64,000 nt of DNA from positions 2,294,001-2,358,000 of the forward strand of contig NZ_CP058601.1 in assembly GCF_013402815.2 (NCBI RefSeq). The letters are read 5' to 3'. Source of the stretch: Natrinema halophilum. Its GTDB lineage: Archaea; Halobacteriota; Halobacteria; Halobacteriales; Natrialbaceae. This document shows, in pieces, positions 7,909-14,545 of this stretch. The notes under the pieces are model-generated. The model was not told the origin of the DNA. It saw only the letters and a list, made by a program, of their open reading frames with translations, and searched no databases. The position numbers and the translations under genes are program-made. Position 1 is the first letter of the stretch; the number at the start of each line of letters is the position of its first letter.

Positions 7909-9426
7909 CTAACAGGACGCCTCCTGCTCACAGTACGTGTCCTGTTCGTTGTAGTCGATCGAGGCTTCTGCAACCGTTTCGCCGTCCATGGTGAGAGTCA
8001 CTGTGGCCGTACAATCCGACTCGAGTTCGGTCCGGAACTGGGTCGAACTGTTCGCAGCAACCGTCAGTCCGTCGGTGGCTCCACCGTCAGATCCATCGTC
8101 GGTACCGCCGTTAGATCCGTCGTCGGAACCGCCGTTAGATCCGTCGTCGGAACCGCCGTTAGATCCGTCATCGGAGCCGCTATTCGCGTCGGCGGCGATC
8201 TGCTTGATTTGCTCGACCTTGTCCGCGGCGTTGTTCAGTGCGTCGACCGCTTCCTGAGCCGCACCACCGAGGTTCTCTTCCAGTCGGGTCGCCTCCTCTC
8301 TCGCTTCCGTCGGCGTGCTAACCGGATTAGCGATATCCGTGCCAATCTGTTCCTGAGCCTGGGCGTTGATCTCGTTGACGACCTTCGTGAAGATCTCGTC
8401 TTGCAGGTTGCTGGCCGTGTCCGGCCCGATCGAGTCGATCGTGCCGACGTTCTCGACGTTCTCGAGCTTCTCGTTGATGCCTTCGAGTATCCCGTTGATC
8501 TCCTGAATCGCCGCTTCGTTACTCCCGCCGGAACCGTCATCGCTTCCGGAGCCGCCGGAGCCACCGGAATCGTCGGAGCCAGTCTCACTGCTCGAGGTAG
8601 TGGCACTCTGGGAGCTATCGTCACTTCCGGAGTCGCCTGAGCCGCTATTCGCGTCGGCGGCGATCTGCTTGATTTGCTCGACTTTATCCGCGGCGTTGTT
8701 CAGTGCGTCGACCGCTTCCTGAGCCGCGCCACCGAGGTTCTCTTCCAGTCGGGTTGCCTCCTCTCTCGCTTCCGTCGGCGTACTAACCGAATTGGCGATG
8801 TCCGTTCCGATCTGTTCCTGTGCCTGGGCGTTGATCTCGTTGACGACCTTCGTGAAGATCTCGTCTTGCAGGTTGCTGGCCGTATCCGGTCCGATCGAGT
8901 CGATCGTGCTGACGTTCTCGACGTTCTCGAGCTTCTTGTTGATGCCTTCGAGTATCCCGTTGATCTCCTGAATTGCTGCTTCGTTACTCCCGCCGGAACC
9001 GCCATCGCTTCCGGAATCGCCGTCACCGCTGGAGCCGTCGTCACCGCTGGAGCCGTCGTCACCGCTGGAGCCATCGTCACCGCCATCGCTTCCGGAGCCG
9101 TCGTCGCCGCTGGAGCCATCGTCACCGCCAGAGCCGCCCGAATTGTACAGTGGGGTCCCTTGAGGTGTGAGTGTGGCCGACTGACTGGCGTTATTGTCGA
9201 CGCGGAACGTCGCGTATTTGCGGCTCGCGTCGACGCACTCGGCTACGAGTTCTATCGCGCTCGGATCGATGGCCGCTTCTTCCGTGTCGGCCGACCCGGA
9301 TCCGGAATTACTGCCGGTGTCCTGCATCGTTGCTGAAACACCGAGAGCACCGCTTCCCAGTACCGCGCCACTGGTCGCTAATATCTTCATGCTGTTCCGC
9401 CGTGAGATTGGGGTTCCGTCTACCAT
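7909..9426 (-). CDS. Secreted or surface protein with a duplicated helical domain
   Basis: The 505-residue product starts with ISRRNSMKILATSGAVLG (a twin-arginine-like export signal, approximate), followed by a beta-type domain (about 45-95), a Gly/Ser/Asp linker, a ~99-residue helical domain beginning NEAAIQEINGILEGIN, a second linker, a nearly identical copy of that domain, a third linker of SDDGSNGG repeats, and a short C-terminal beta domain with CTATVTL and two cysteines at the very end (DTYCEQEASC). The helical repeats look amphipathic and coiled-coil prone. It reads as a cell-surface protein with two stalk or binding modules on flexible acidic linkers. The function is unknown. The start at 9426 places the twin arginine near residue 9; the longer frame to 9495 has no added sense. 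Confidence 0.85.
   Translation of the reverse strand: MVDGTPISRRNSMKILATSGAVLGSGALGVSATMQDTGSNSGSGSADTEEAAIDPSAIELVAECVDASRKYATFRVDNNASQSATLTPQGTPLYNSGGSGGDDGSSGDDGSGSDGGDDGSSGDDGSSGDDGSSGDGDSGSDGGSGGSNEAAIQEINGILEGINKKLENVENVSTIDSIGPDTASNLQDEIFTKVVNEINAQAQEQIGTDIANSVSTPTEAREEATRLEENLGGAAQEAVDALNNAADKVEQIKQIAADANSGSGDSGSDDSSQSATTSSSETGSDDSGGSGGSGSDDGSGGSNEAAIQEINGILEGINEKLENVENVGTIDSIGPDTASNLQDEIFTKVVNEINAQAQEQIGTDIANPVSTPTEAREEATRLEENLGGAAQEAVDALNNAADKVEQIKQIAADANSGSDDGSNGGSDDGSNGGSDDGSNGGTDDGSDGGATDGLTVAANSSTQFRTELESDCTATVTLTMDGETVAEASIDYNEQDTYCEQEASC
8174..8550 (-). repeat. Internal gene duplication, copy A (C-terminal module)
   Basis: About 377 bp that match 8639-9015 at an offset of 465 bp with only a scatter of single-base changes and no indel seen. 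It encodes one ~99-residue helical module with flanking linker. Changed residues include Lys/Glu and Ser/Pro substitutions. Confidence 0.9.
8639..9015 (-). repeat. Internal gene duplication, copy B (N-terminal module)
   Basis: Partner of 8174-8550. The near identity, including third codon positions, points to a recent duplication or to ongoing gene conversion between the two copies. Confidence 0.9.
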
Positions 9427-10289
9427 GATTGTCTCACCCGACTGGAACGCGAACGTCCAGTCAGGATACGAATTAGTCAAGCTTTTTATTATCATTATTA
9501 TTCGAGCACTAAACAGTTGCAGTGTTGTGTGTTTTGTACGCCGTGTTAATTAACCGAAAGTTTCCATCAGTGATATAGTCTGTACTCGTTGAAAGAAACA
9601 CGGGACTTTGAGGCGGTATGAACCGGTTTACGGGCGATTAAGCCCTTCGAGAACGGATTTGCTTGTGAAAAGGAGCCCTTTGTTGCAATTACTTCTTCGG
9701 CGATAGGATGACGGACACACGGTTTTCTGAGACTCGCAGTGAGCGTTCGTGAGGGCAGTATTAGGCGAGCGTTTCGGTGTCGGTGAAATTCAGCGGCCTT
9801 GCCATTTGGTTCACACAGTAAACGGCCTTCGTCGGGTCCGGTCCGATTTGTCGGTCCGAACGACAACGTTTCCCCTGCAACGTATCCCCCGACCGTTTGC
9901 TACCGCCTTATCTCACTATTCACGTTTTTGCAACGATTGTTCTGAGCGAAAAAATTCGAACACCGTGTGGGGCGCCCGTGATCGTCGTATCGTTCAGAGC
10001 GTCTGGTACACACTCACGGTCGATTGTCGACGAGAACGACCGAACGGGACTCCACACGCTCTCTCACGGCCGATTGTCGACGAGAACGACCGAACGGGAC
10101 TCCGCACGCTCTCACGATCGACAATACAGTCGGCCGGAACACGCGCGCACCGATGGGGCCTCGAGCAACGATCTACCGGCACGAAACCGACCGCCCACCA
10201 GCAACGTCTATCGATCGGTCACCGACGTCTCGTTCCGGTGGAACGATCAGCCGGGTACCCATCCCCCGGAAACTGAACGAACTATTCGA
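9427..10289. other. Long intergenic stretch with AT-rich promoter and tandem repeat
   Basis: About 860 bases without a convincing gene. Bases 9480-9510 are strongly AT-rich and probably carry the promoter of the surface protein at 9426. A 50-bp tandem repeat lies at 10011-10124. A 99-codon minus frame at 9567-9866 is basic and featureless and was not called. Confidence 0.6.
10011..10124. repeat. 50-bp tandem repeat, about 2.2 copies
   Basis: Units at 10021-10070 and 10071-10120 differ at very few positions; a partial unit precedes them. Each unit begins with CGATTGTCGACGAGAACGAC. The sequence after the second copy contains ATCGACAAT, the inverse of the unit start. It is non-coding as far as I can see; origin and role are unknown. 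Confidence 0.85.
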
Positions 10290-10904
10290 TCACGTACTAT
10301 CGGGGTCGAAAACCGAACCTTCGTGGGAAGCGCGTGTAACGATGCTCGCTGCGATGCCGCCAATCGCACCGAATATCAACGGATAAAACGTTCCGGCAAA
10401 CCCGATCGTCAAGAGAAGATCGGGTTGCATCGCACCGTCGCCGAGATCGATAGCAAATACGGTCGTGCCGAGAACGGCCAATGGTAAGTACCCCACCATG
10501 ACGGTCGTTCCAGTGAGTGCGGCGTCGGTCGTCGATTCGAGATCGTGTCGGGTGTATATCGTCACCAGCGCGCCAGCGAAGAGCAAGGTCACAATCGGAA
10601 CGCCATACAGGAGTGTCGTACTCCCCCCTTGGGCAGAGATGAAATTGTGATTCGGATCGAGGGCTTGCAAAATGCTGTACTGTGGAACATCGATGGTGAC
10701 TCGGTGTGCATTGTAGAACAACATGCCAATCATTTCGACGGAAAGAGACTCATTAGCGGCAAGTTCCAGCGCCTCGAACTTTTCGTCCGACGTGACGTCA
10801 CCGATTGCGGTCACGTAGGTGAAGAGATATCCAGCGATCCAGGCAAAAGCACCACCCAGCGTCCCCCTTCCGATCATGACCTTCGATTCGTCATCAACTA
10901 TCAT
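10290..10904 (-). CDS. Membrane protein of unknown function
   Basis: The 204-residue product has about five hydrophobic spans: near residues 14-33, 99-118, 133-156, 163-180 and 176-200. A soluble loop of about 50 residues follows the first span. No motif identifies it; many haloarchaea carry similar five-span proteins of unassigned role. The start at 10904 was chosen over the ATG at 10946 because a TTATTT box lies about 30 bases upstream of 10904, as for a leaderless transcript. The tail ends in a short acidic segment. Base composition is slightly less GC-rich than its neighbours. Confidence 0.75.
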   Translation of the reverse strand: MIVDDESKVMIGRGTLGGAFAWIAGYLFTYVTAIGDVTSDEKFEALELAANESLSVEMIGMLFYNAHRVTIDVPQYSILQALDPNHNFISAQGGSTTLLYGVPIVTLLFAGALVTIYTRHDLESTTDAALTGTTVMVGYLPLAVLGTTVFAIDLGDGAMQPDLLLTIGFAGTFYPLIFGAIGGIAASIVTRASHEGSVFDPDST

Positions 10905-10930
10905 GCCACACAATACCAATCCACAGTACA

Positions 10931-10936
10931 AAATAA
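10931..10936 (-). promoter_or_regulatory. TATA-like box of the membrane protein gene
   Basis: TTATTT on the minus strand, about 30 bases before the ATG at 10904. It decides between two possible starts. Confidence 0.5.
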
Positions 10937-11125
10937 TTACGGACATGCAAATGGTAATAATTTGTTCTCATTTGGGAGGATATTGTCGATACAGCTCGGT
11001 ATCCCGGCCACGACGATTGATCGACGGTATCCGATCGGAACGGAGAATACGACGACAGTCCAGAGCAAGCGCGGCCGCCACAGCAGTTGAGTCGATCAGG
11101 CGAAACGGACGCCGTTGTACACGTT

Positions 11126-12286
11126 CTATCGGTCTTTAGCAGGCGTCCACGACCGGTTCGTCTCCCCGATGTATCGGGAGACCGGCCGAATCAACGTATT
11201 GTTATCGAGTTGCTCGAGAGCGTGGGCCATCCAGCCCGCGACTCGCGACACACCGAAGGTCGGCGTGAACAACTGTTTCGGAACGCCGACACCGTCGAGT
11301 AGCGCGGCGGTATAGAATTCGACGTTCGTTTCAAGTCGGCGGTCTGGGTTGTGTTCCCGCAGAGCCTCGACGGCAACCGTCTCGAATTCCCGGACGGTCT
11401 CGAAGAAGTCGACGTCGGACGACTCCGCGATCAGACGGTCGGTCGCCGACGAAAGAACCGCTGCACGCGGGTCGCGGACGCGATAGACGCGGTGGCCGAA
11501 TCCCATCAGTCGCTCGCCGGCGGCTAACTTCTCGGTGACGTACCCGGCCGGATCGCCGGATTCGTGGACGTCTCTCAGCATCTCGAGGACGGGACCAGGT
11601 GCGCCGCCGTGAAGCGGCCCCTTGAGCGAGCCCACCGCAGCGGTCGCTGCCGAAACGAGGTCCGATTCGGTCGAGACGACAGTCCTGGCGGTGAACGTCG
11701 AGGCGTTGACGCCGTGGTCGATGACGGTATTGAGGTAGGTCTCGAGTCCACGGACGACGGCTTCGTCAGGTCGATCGCCGGTGAGCATGTACAGATAGTT
11801 CGCAGCGTGGCCGAGATCCTCACGCGGTTCGACGGGATCGCTTCCCTGCCGGTATCGCCAGTAGGTCGCGATGATCGTGGGAAAAACGGCCACGAGTCGC
11901 CGAGCGAGAGCCGGCGTCGCCTCGTCCCCGATTGGGTGGAACGGCCGCGCCTCTTCATCGGTGTCGAGATTCGCCGCCGCGGTACCCATCCTGAGCGCAT
12001 CCATCGCCGGTTTCTCCGCCTCGGCGGCGTGCCGGAGCACGTCACGAACGCTTGCAGAGATACCGCGTCGGCTCGCGAGATCCGAGCGAAAGTCATCGAG
12101 TTCTGCCGCCGTCGGCAACCGATCGTGGAACAGGAGGAATACGGTTTCCTCGTACGTCGCTCGAGTGGCCAGTTCCTCGATCGGATAGCCGCCGATGACG
12201 AGTTCGCCGTTCTCGCCGTCGATGTCGCTGAGTCTCGTCTCCGCAACGGTGACCCCCTCGAGACCCGGGGTGATAGTGTCGTTCAT
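11126..12286 (-). CDS. Citrate synthase family enzyme
   Basis: The 386-residue protein is a full-length citrate synthase homologue, condensing acetyl-CoA (or a related acyl-CoA) with oxaloacetate. The substrate-binding and catalytic histidines are seen as VIDHGVN (His191), LKGPLHGGA (His226) and MGFGHRVYRVRDPR (His265 with the arginine of DPR). The third catalytic position, Asp in most enzymes (NVDFY), is Glu323 in NVEFY. The C-terminus has the conserved GWMAHALEQ and LIRP segments. The ATG at 12286 gives the family N-terminus; the frame extends to 12442 without similarity. It is followed upstream by a second, fused homologue in the same orientation, 262 bases away. Whether it is the main citrate synthase or a 2-methylcitrate-type or paralogous enzyme cannot be decided here. 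Confidence 0.9.
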   Translation of the reverse strand: MNDTITPGLEGVTVAETRLSDIDGENGELVIGGYPIEELATRATYEETVFLLFHDRLPTAAELDDFRSDLASRRGISASVRDVLRHAAEAEKPAMDALRMGTAAANLDTDEEARPFHPIGDEATPALARRLVAVFPTIIATYWRYRQGSDPVEPREDLGHAANYLYMLTGDRPDEAVVRGLETYLNTVIDHGVNASTFTARTVVSTESDLVSAATAAVGSLKGPLHGGAPGPVLEMLRDVHESGDPAGYVTEKLAAGERLMGFGHRVYRVRDPRAAVLSSATDRLIAESSDVDFFETVREFETVAVEALREHNPDRRLETNVEFYTAALLDGVGVPKQLFTPTFGVSRVAGWMAHALEQLDNNTLIRPVSRYIGETNRSWTPAKDR

Positions 12287-12547
12287 GGGCTTCGATATCC
12301 AATCGACGACGGGAAGAAATGTAAGCGCTTGGAGCAATTTCGTTCCCCATCCAACAGGGGAGAGAGGGACGGTTCTCGGTGATCGACTACAACGCGGTAC
12401 GGAGTCACCGGTCAAAACCCGAGACGTGCGGCCCAACACCACCAGTAATGGATGAACGGTCCGGATCGGCCGGCTGGCGTGAGACTGACGGCTCGTCTAC
12501 TCCGGGGAAGGATCGTTCTCCATCAGTGACGGTCGGTCGATCGGGAT

Positions 12548-14002
12548 TCAGTCCAGGAGATCGTCGAGGAGTTGCTCTTCCGTGAGGACAGTCTCGACGA
12601 ACGCAAGCCCGGCATCGGTCAATTCGTAGCCGTCCGCGCGATTAACGACGAAGTGATCCCGTAGCTGGCGCAGGTGATAGTTGAACCGGCCCTTGTCCTC
12701 GATCGACGACGACGCTCGGAGTGCCGAATACGAAACCGGGTCGTTTCGATCGGACAACAGGAGAAGCAGTTCGAGTCGGTTCGGTTCAGAAAGGATCGCG
12801 AGCGTCTCCGAGACCGGTTCGAGCGTCGCCGATTGAACGGGTCGTCGAACCAGCGAGTCCCCCGCCACGTCTCGATTCTCGACCGGAAGCCAGTCTTTCC
12901 CCGTCGGGCCGACGTACTGGCCAGTGGGTCGAACGAGGGCGTTGTCGTCCAACTGCTCGAGGCAGTGGGCCGTCCAGCCACCGACACGCGAGATGCCGAA
13001 CGTGGCCGTAAACAGCTCCTTCGGGACACCGATCTCGTGAAGCAAAGCGGCGGCGTAGACCTCGACGTTGGCCTCTGTACCGCGGTGAGGAGCGCGCGCC
13101 GACAGTACGTTCCCCGCAACCGTTTCGAACTGCCTGATGTTCTCGAGAAACTCGTCGTCCCCCGACTCTTCGACGAAGCGTTCGGCAGCCGCCTCGAGTA
13201 CTTCCGCCCGCGGATCGCGGACCTGATACACCGGATGGCCGAATCCGTTGACGCGTTCGTCCGCCGCCAGTTTCTCGCGAACGTACCGTTCGCCGTCACC
13301 GGTTTCGTGGATTTCCCATAGCATCTCGAAGACCTGTTCGAGACCGCCACCGTGGCGAGATCCTTTGAACGTCCCGACGGCAGCCGTCGCCGCCGAAACG
13401 ACGTCCGATTCAGTCGACATCACGGTCCGAGCGGTGAACGTCGAGGGGTTGAGGCCGTGATCGATCAGAGTGGTAAGAAAGGTCTCGAGGCCGCGAACCG
13501 CAGATTCAGCCGGCTCCTCGCCGGTCAGCATGTACAGGTAGTTCGCGGCGTGACCGAGGTCGTCGTTCGGCAGAACTGGGTCCGCTCCGCGCCGATAGCG
13601 CCAGTACGTCGCGGCGACCGTCGGGAAGACGGCGACGACGCGCTCGGCGGTCGCTTGCGGGTCTGTCTCGGCATTCTCGAGGGTCGCCGTCGCGATGCCC
13701 ATCCTGAGTGCGTCCATCGCATGCGTTTCGTCCGCCGCGGCACGCTGGAGTACGGCCCGGACCTCCGAACAGATTCCGCGTCGATTCGCGAGACCTGAGC
13801 GAAAGTCGTCGAGTTCCGCCGCCGTCGGCAGCCGACCGTTGAGCAGGAGAAACACGCTTTCCTCGTAGCTCGCTCGAGTTGCGAGTTCTTCGACCGGATA
13901 ACCGCCGATGAGCAGTTCGCCGTTTTCACCGTCGATGTCGCTGAGCGTCGTCTCTGCGACCGTGACGAACTGCAATCGCGGATCGAAGACGGAAGGGGGC
14001 AC
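12548..14002 (-). CDS. Citrate synthase-like protein fused to a winged-helix DNA-binding domain
   Basis: Residues 1-375 are a complete citrate synthase domain closely related to the neighbouring gene: DHG (His182), FKGSRHGGG (His217), NGFGHPVYQVRDPR (His256), NVEVY (Glu314 at the usual Asp position) and GGWTAHCLEQ. The domain is followed, in the same frame and without a linker break, by about 90 residues (395-484) of an ArsR-type winged helix: SETLAILSEPNRLELLLLL, SYSALRASS, GRFNYHLRQLRDHFV and YELTDAGLAFVE. This is the haloarchaeal wHTH type with the GRFNYHL recognition-helix signature. The start is a GTG at 14002, giving an N-terminus of the same length as the neighbour; there is no ATG before the frame runs antisense into the DCC gene. 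A metabolite-sensing transcription factor, or a bifunctional enzyme, is inferred. Confidence 0.85.
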   Translation of the reverse strand: MPPSVFDPRLQFVTVAETTLSDIDGENGELLIGGYPVEELATRASYEESVFLLLNGRLPTAAELDDFRSGLANRRGICSEVRAVLQRAAADETHAMDALRMGIATATLENAETDPQATAERVVAVFPTVAATYWRYRRGADPVLPNDDLGHAANYLYMLTGEEPAESAVRGLETFLTTLIDHGLNPSTFTARTVMSTESDVVSAATAAVGTFKGSRHGGGLEQVFEMLWEIHETGDGERYVREKLAADERVNGFGHPVYQVRDPRAEVLEAAAERFVEESGDDEFLENIRQFETVAGNVLSARAPHRGTEANVEVYAAALLHEIGVPKELFTATFGISRVGGWTAHCLEQLDDNALVRPTGQYVGPTGKDWLPVENRDVAGDSLVRRPVQSATLEPVSETLAILSEPNRLELLLLLSDRNDPVSYSALRASSSIEDKGRFNYHLRQLRDHFVVNRADGYELTDAGLAFVETVLTEEQLLDDLLD

Positions 14003-14158: not shown

Positions 14159-14545
14159 ATGACTGAGACGACACTCGTTTACGACGATGACTGCGGCTTC
14201 TGTACGTGGTGGGCGGAGTACTTCGACGATCGGTCTGATCTTCGAATCGTCGGATTCAGCGACCTCGATAGCGATTTGAGAGGGCGACTGCCCACCGACT
14301 ACGAGGACTGTGCGCATCTGGTAACCGGCGACGGAGTGTACTCCTGTGGCGCATCGATCGAACAAGCGTTCGTTCGCACCGACGTCGTGAAGCCTGCGGG
14401 GGACGTCCTCGAGTTTCTTCGCCAGTTCGAGGACTACGAACGGCTTCGGGAGCGCACCTACCGATGGGTCGCCGACAACCGCGACCGCTGGGGTGAACTC
14501 CTCTCGAAGACGCCGCCGACGCGCCGGGAGCCCGAAAACGACTGA
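14159..14545 (+). CDS. DCC (DUF393) thiol-disulfide oxidoreductase-like protein
   Basis: The 128-residue protein has the DCC signature YDDDCGFCTWWAEY with Cys12 and Cys15 as a CxxC redox pair, followed by DLRIVGFSDLD and a HLVTGDGVYSCGASIEQA segment in which Cys64 or so may take part. The family is thioredoxin-like and often lies beside membrane or respiratory proteins; physiological partners are unknown. The ATG at 14159 is preferred because the DCC motif always sits close to the N-terminus. It is transcribed divergently from the citrate synthase-wHTH gene, with only about 155 bases between starts, so the wHTH could control this gene; that is inference. Confidence 0.9.
   Translation: MTETTLVYDDDCGFCTWWAEYFDDRSDLRIVGFSDLDSDLRGRLPTDYEDCAHLVTGDGVYSCGASIEQAFVRTDVVKPAGDVLEFLRQFEDYERLRERTYRWVADNRDRWGELLSKTPPTRREPEND

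Follow-up and report, generated by a model that had tools for sequence, protein, structure and literature searches.

Gene Organization at the Locus

The window (64,000 nt of the 4.84 Mb genome of Natrinema halophilum; G000:C1:2294001-2358000) carries on its minus strand, at 12548–14002, one open frame of 484 codons, whose GTG start codon is shared with its orthologs. The frame encodes a citrate synthase (CS) domain, a linker of ∼21 residues, and a winged helix (wHTH) at the C-terminus (table 1). The original prediction of a CS domain and a winged helix joined in one frame is confirmed by matches to two Pfam families and by 15 orthologs. PF00285 (Citrate_synt) spans residues 12–360 with 354 bits against a cut-off of 27, and PF24038 (DUF7347) spans residues 399–472 with 72.1 bits against a gathering cut-off of 27.6. 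Downstream lies CS2, a stand-alone alternative citrate synthase gene, and two palindromes are located between the genes. A motif, AACCATTACAACG, is kept ∼33 nt before the start codon of the fusion (upstream of 14002, minus strand) in the window and in G005, G018, G009, and G013, and is probably the fusion's own promoter. In the other fusion lineage, CGTAACACTGTTG replaces AACCATTACAACG at a similar position.

Table 1. Features of the fusion–CS2 locus, in window positions
Feature	Position	Strand	Details
CS2, stand-alone alternative citrate synthase, presumed target	11126..12286	-	PF00285, 387 bits; downstream of fusion
TATA-like box CTTACAT of CS2 (predicted)	12319..12325	-	Constant distance to palindrome in all genomes
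Proximal palindrome, candidate operator	12331..12348		Minus strand GGGGAA-cgaaat-TGCTCC; 62 nt upstream of CS2 start
Distal palindrome, candidate operator	12504..12521		Minus strand GGAGAA-cgatcc-TTCCCC; 26 nt past fusion stop
Fusion gene, CS domain + linker + C-terminal winged helix	12548..14002	-	484 aa, GTG start; 15 full-length orthologs
Winged helix DUF7347	12587..12808	-	aa 399–472; 72 bits; ArsR/HxlR/MarR-type fold
Presumed recognition helix KGRFNYHLRQL	12662..12694	-	aa 437–447
Linker	12809..12871	-	aa 378–398; pLDDT <50 over aa 378–402
CS domain, presumed metabolite sensor	12872..13975	-	aa 10–377; PF00285, 354 bits; AlphaFold2 model matches CS structures, Z about 44
DCC gene	14159..14545	+	PF04134; divergent from fusion

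Distribution and Origin of the Fusion

Intact fusions are present in 15 haloarchaeal genomes of several families, 12 in whole genomes and three in an independent collection. Orthologs are 68–75% identical in the same genus (G005, G018, G009, and G013), about 51% identical in the same family (G053, G105, and G133), and 46–52% identical in other families of the order (G089, G377, G419, and G278). With the wHTH region alone as query, seven loci were recovered from 84,980 named genomes, every one a complete haloarchaeal fusion. Four of these (Natrinema gari, which is of the window's genus, Natrialba sp. SSL1, Halovivax sp. KZCA124, and Halogranum rubrum) were already within the 12 and are counted once; those of Salinibaculum litoreum, Halorientalis marina, and Halobacteriales archaeon YIM A00010 are new.

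Gene order is conserved across the fusion genomes. In all 15, the two genes share a strand and the fusion precedes CS2, which is the immediate downstream gene in 14; in G053, an insertion of ∼3.4 kb with two ORFs of 453 and 359 aa (L042, oriented 9677–13098) separates the two. Across families, no neighborhood is conserved beyond CS2. CS2 occurs without the fusion in about 60 of 391 genomes of the class, and no intact fusion without CS2 was seen among the genomes examined.

The CS domain of the fusion is about 64–65% identical to CS2. The canonical CitZ is encoded away from the fusion (G000:C1:1992614; 40% identity), and the fusion scores 344.5 bits versus the 550 of the CitZ equivalog NF041301. 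In a maximum-likelihood tree of 56 CS sequences, which covers the 12 whole-genome fusions and leaves the three found later outside, all 12 fusions form one clade (100/100) that is nested among CS2 and apart from CitZ (100/100). These sequence relationships indicate that the 12 fusions arose once, through duplication of CS2. The fusions split into two lineages that correspond to the two lineages of their CS2 partners, so the two genes have moved as a pair.

CS2 probably serves as an additional citrate synthase. A role in methylcitrate metabolism is less favored: a PrpB-type lyase was not found in the window's genome or in its four close fusion-bearing relatives, which makes a complete methylcitrate cycle unlikely in the window's genome, and PrpD-like proteins are patchily present.

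The fusion–CS2 pair is decaying in several genomes of the family. In G017 (L044, reverse-complemented 8702–9834), a frameshifted chimera has the N-terminus of the fusion and the C-terminus of CS2, apparently from recombination between the tandem paralogs, and its candidate operators are gone. The fusion of G128 (L096, oriented 8565–9356) has an in-frame deletion of most of the CS domain (residues ∼33–247) and retains the wHTH, the open frame, and the Arg of GFGHR; neither CS2 nor operators are nearby. G001, G015, and G050 have only tails of CS2. No palindrome is left near the broken loci of these five genomes.

Residues of the Citrate Synthase Domain

The AlphaFold2 model of the whole fusion has a CS fold whose best structure matches are citrate synthases (Z about 44); confidence is mostly high over the CS domain and the linker is disordered. 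His182, His217, His256, and Glu314, as named in the original prediction, are all confirmed in the window protein, which also has the oxaloacetate-type residues Arg265, Arg339, and Arg358. All 15 fusions keep His217, His256, Glu/Asp314, and the three arginines, and 14 keep His182, which is missing in G419. Conversely, the Arg of GFGH-R-VY that follows the catalytic His is gone in 14 of 15 fusions, the window protein having Pro257, and is present in all 46 of the enzymes aligned, which comprise CS2 and CitZ proteins and two references. Arg250, Asn312, and Asn354 are eroded among the fusions, and the LHGGAP loop of CS2 has become RHGGGL or similar. The GFGH region adjoins the adenine of CoA in structures of citrate synthases. 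Accordingly, the fusions appear to have retained the oxaloacetate pocket and remodeled the acyl-CoA side. Among the 15 fusions, 18% of positions are invariant in the CS domain versus 34% in the wHTH, and identity across the two fusion lineages is 49% for the CS domain versus 68% for the CS2 partner.

The Winged Helix and Palindromes at the CS2 Promoter

All structure matches to the whole model fell on the CS domain, so the wHTH was modeled separately. On its own, it is folded by AlphaFold2 as H-H-H-H-E-E-H and its best matches in the PDB are the repressors YodB, QsrR, HxlR, SmtB, and CzrA, with CggR also matched (Foldseek E of 0.007 and weaker; VIA Z up to 12). The best sequence match is NmtR of the ArsR class and is nonsignificant. 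The fold resembles that class, but a score of 17.3 bits versus a cut-off of 55 (NF033788) led us to reject the wHTH as an ArsR/SmtB metalloregulator. All 15 fusions have the same presumed recognition helix, DKGRFNYHLR, and in KGRFNYHLRQL, 10 of 11 positions are invariant across the 15 genomes, with residue 446 being Q, K, or R. No papers on DUF7347 were present in the literature searched, which lacks most subscription journals.

A motif, GGRGAA-N6-TTCYCC, occurs twice in the fusion–CS2 intergenic region of the 12 genomes compared; the region is 155–267 nt long (3.6 kb in G053). Scored over 12 positions, the proximal palindrome matches at 11–12 in 15 of 15 fusion genomes and the distal one at 10–12 in 14 of 15, the other genome being single-site. 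The proximal palindrome is 52–62 nt upstream of the CS2 start, or 110 nt in Halorientalis, and in all 15 genomes, including Halorientalis with its longer leader, ends about six bases before the TATA-like box. Spacing between the two is mostly ∼165 bp and ranges from 107 to 188 bp without helical phasing. The insertion in G053 separates the stop codon of the fusion from the distal site and both sites remain with CS2, which argues that both belong to the control region of CS2.

The palindrome pair at CS2 promoters is newly found and is tied to the presence of the fusion. No promoter of the 39 CS2 genes without a fusion has a palindrome matching at 11 or more positions (maximum of 10/12), nor does any of 12 CitZ promoters. 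The motif was derived from 12 loci; the three genomes that were identified later all have the site (3/3) and are the only strict out-of-sample cases, and genomes that are related do not count as independent. Dinucleotide shuffles reach at least 11/12 per region in 0.1–0.6% of cases, a figure that is biased because the motif was discovered in the same set; the CS2-only, CitZ, and out-of-sample controls are therefore stronger. Exact matches are rare genome wide: pattern searches identified zero to four per fusion genome, about half at the CS2 locus, and five in 14 genomes without the fusion (zero to one each).

Two extensions of the motif were rejected. A wider regulon is not apparent, as the exact matches at eight other loci examined in fusion genomes mostly fall within ORFs and have no gene in common. 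Autoregulation through the same palindrome is likewise not predicted, since a scan of 12 genomes found no site of at least 11/12 upstream of the fusion (best 9/12).

The original prediction of a transcription factor had suggested two targets. The part that invoked a CS-fold regulator and the tandem CS2 is supported, with the palindrome in 15 of 15 fusion genomes versus 0 of 39 with CS2 only. The divergent DCC gene, in contrast, can be set aside as a target: there is no site upstream of the fusion (best 8/12) and the gene is not a conserved neighbor, with no DCC homolog (E ≤ 1e-3) in the 18–20 kb surrounding each of the other whole-genome fusions.

A Predicted Regulator of the Neighboring Citrate Synthase Gene

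The fusion is always beside CS2, whose promoter holds the palindromes, and so it seems that an enzyme has become a switch for its sister gene. We consider it quite likely that the fusion acts locally, as a transcription factor dedicated to a single target, the neighboring CS2. A broader interpretation, to which we lean with less confidence, is that a CS fold now provides the sensory part of an archaeal transcription factor, which reads oxaloacetate/acyl-CoA, switches the gene of its ancestral sister, and forms with it a self-contained regulator–target module that moves between haloarchaeal families and has an independent bacterial parallel in MerR-like HTH–CS proteins beside a plain CS gene.

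In the predicted mechanism, the CS domain would hold the fusion as a dimer and the two winged helices would meet two half-sites, which are 12 bp apart from center to center, about one turn. The CS domain would bind oxaloacetate and/or an acyl-CoA, which are the most likely ligands. Citrate synthases move from open to closed upon ligand binding. Such a movement in the fusion could change the geometry or spacing of the two winged helices and hence binding to DNA. CS2 alone would be the target. The second site, usually ∼165 bp off, may allow for cooperative binding or looping.

The direction of control is predicted with less certainty. The proximal site would directly precede the BRE/TATA region, in which the TATA-like box is weak. 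For archaeal TrmB-type regulators, sites upstream of BRE/TATA lead to activation and sites downstream lead to repression (PMC4158304). By analogy, the location of the site and weakness of the box slightly favor activation of CS2 over repression through blocking of TFB, and an overlap with the BRE could equally be compatible with repression.

Alternative Explanations

The fusion could instead be a bifunctional trigger enzyme that makes citrate (or a homolog of it) and also binds DNA, as does PutA. Its CS domain is under purifying selection, and the base residues (His/His and Asp/Glu) and three oxaloacetate arginines are found in the window protein as well as in most of its orthologs, nearly without exception. 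However, the loss of the GFGH-R-VY Arg in 14 of 15 fusions, the erosion of Arg250, Asn312, and Asn354, the missing His182 of G419, and the lower conservation of the CS domain relative to CS2 across fusion lineages make such a bifunctional enzyme unlikely.

It is less likely still that the fusion senses the amount of CS2 protein through mixed oligomers rather than a metabolite. Citrate synthases are obligate dimers, and a CS2-derived domain that is about 64% identical to a co-occurring partner could conceivably pair with it. However, paralogs often cease to mix, and conservation of the ligand residues suggests that a ligand is still bound.

The palindromes could also be RNA elements, such as a hairpin or terminator, unrelated to the wHTH. 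They are inverted repeats, and one is directly behind a stop codon. Yet across 29 sites, the arms are fixed and the six-base spacer is free; the variable arm pair is A-T in 11 sites, G-T in nine, G-C in five, and A-C in four, without covariation, and the next pair is G-A in five of 29. Mismatched pairs, a distance to the TATA-like box that is constant even with a longer leader, and absence of the palindromes from genomes without the fusion render an RNA element very improbable. Conserved arms, a free spacer, and the lack of covariation instead favor recognition of two half-sites by a protein.

An assembly or base error that fused two genes, at about 12850 as the original prediction had allowed for, has a negligible probability and a frame error is excluded, because the join and linker are common to 15 genomes with intact fusions, and the CS domain and wHTH are each under purifying selection (dN/dS of 0.05–0.35 in codon comparisons, NG86).

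Comparison with Known Systems

Each half of the predicted regulator has relatives in haloarchaea. CS2 (PF00285, type II) is the parent of the CS domain and forms one clade with it, apart from CitZ, but lacks a wHTH and retains GFGHRVY and LHGGAP. DUF7347 (PF24038) proteins of haloarchaea share the domain family of the wHTH. Relatives in the window's own genome are 34–43% identical to it, but lie in open frames of about 300–340 aa without a CS domain.

Bacteria also have proteins that join an HTH to a CS domain, annotated as "citrate synthase family protein" (MerR/HTH_17 + CS; e.g., Agrobacterium fabrum ATU_RS25370). Unlike the haloarchaeal fusion, their HTH is N-terminal and MerR-like, their CS domains are on a distant branch, and gene order is divergent; the window fusion has no N-terminal HTH_17/MerR domain and its wHTH is C-terminal. 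On these sequence features, the bacterial proteins represent an independent fusion. Proteins with an N-terminal MerR-like HTH and distant CS are encoded on plasmids of Roseomonas, Deinococcus, and Burkholderia, with the HTH of the last just under the cut-off. On pAt of Agrobacterium fabrum (299436–301812; L150:1186-3562), the gene is divergent from a plain CS gene and the start codons overlap; the same divergent arrangement is on p2 of Pararhizobium qamdonense (L151:1285-3577). In both rhizobial cases examined, a plain CS gene adjoins the HTH–CS gene, with start codons overlapping or close. The HTH match is borderline in Agrobacterium fabrum and below the Pfam cut-off in Pararhizobium qamdonense. 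Functional studies of these proteins were not found in the literature searched, from which most subscription journals are missing.

Regulators with other effector domains offer more distant comparisons. MocR/GabR regulators use a PLP aminotransferase fold as a sensor, joined to a wHTH, with a target gene in their own metabolism (PMC6677901). The haloarchaeal fusion is similar in having an enzyme fold turned sensor, a joined wHTH, and a target (here predicted) in the same pathway. MocR/GabR differ in that they are bacterial and have an unrelated enzyme fold and an N-terminal wHTH, and the fusion fell outside their family when tested. CggR, of the SorC family, is a regulator of central metabolism in which an enzyme-like, sugar-phosphate-binding effector domain is combined with a wHTH. 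Its DNA-binding domain is among the fold matches of the fusion's wHTH, but its effector fold and ligand are different. CitA of Caulobacter is a citrate synthase whose regulatory role does not depend on catalysis (PMC7083601); unlike the fusion, it acts on the cell cycle and a DNA-binding domain is not described. The original prediction also stated that no regulator of this makeup had been described. This holds for the literature searched, in which we found no paper on a CS–wHTH protein and which lacks most subscription journals, but must be qualified by the annotated bacterial proteins with a MerR-like HTH and a CS domain.

Citrate synthase gates entry of carbon into the TCA cycle. If the interpretation is correct, the fusion is a one-component transcription factor for which an operator, target, class of ligand, and evolutionary origin are all predicted, and exemplifies an enzyme that duplicated, gained a winged helix, and then came to regulate its parent. 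Archaea and bacteria may have made CS regulators separately. The fusion could also serve as a part for sensing acetyl-CoA/oxaloacetate, for example, in haloarchaeal bioplastic strains, where the level of citrate synthase is already a lever (PMC8387396).

Elsewhere in the window (7909–9495, minus strand), a putative surface protein of 528 aa is rich in serine, glycine, and aspartate and has a long segment (AIQEINGILEGIN...IKQIAADANSGS) that is repeated almost unaltered.
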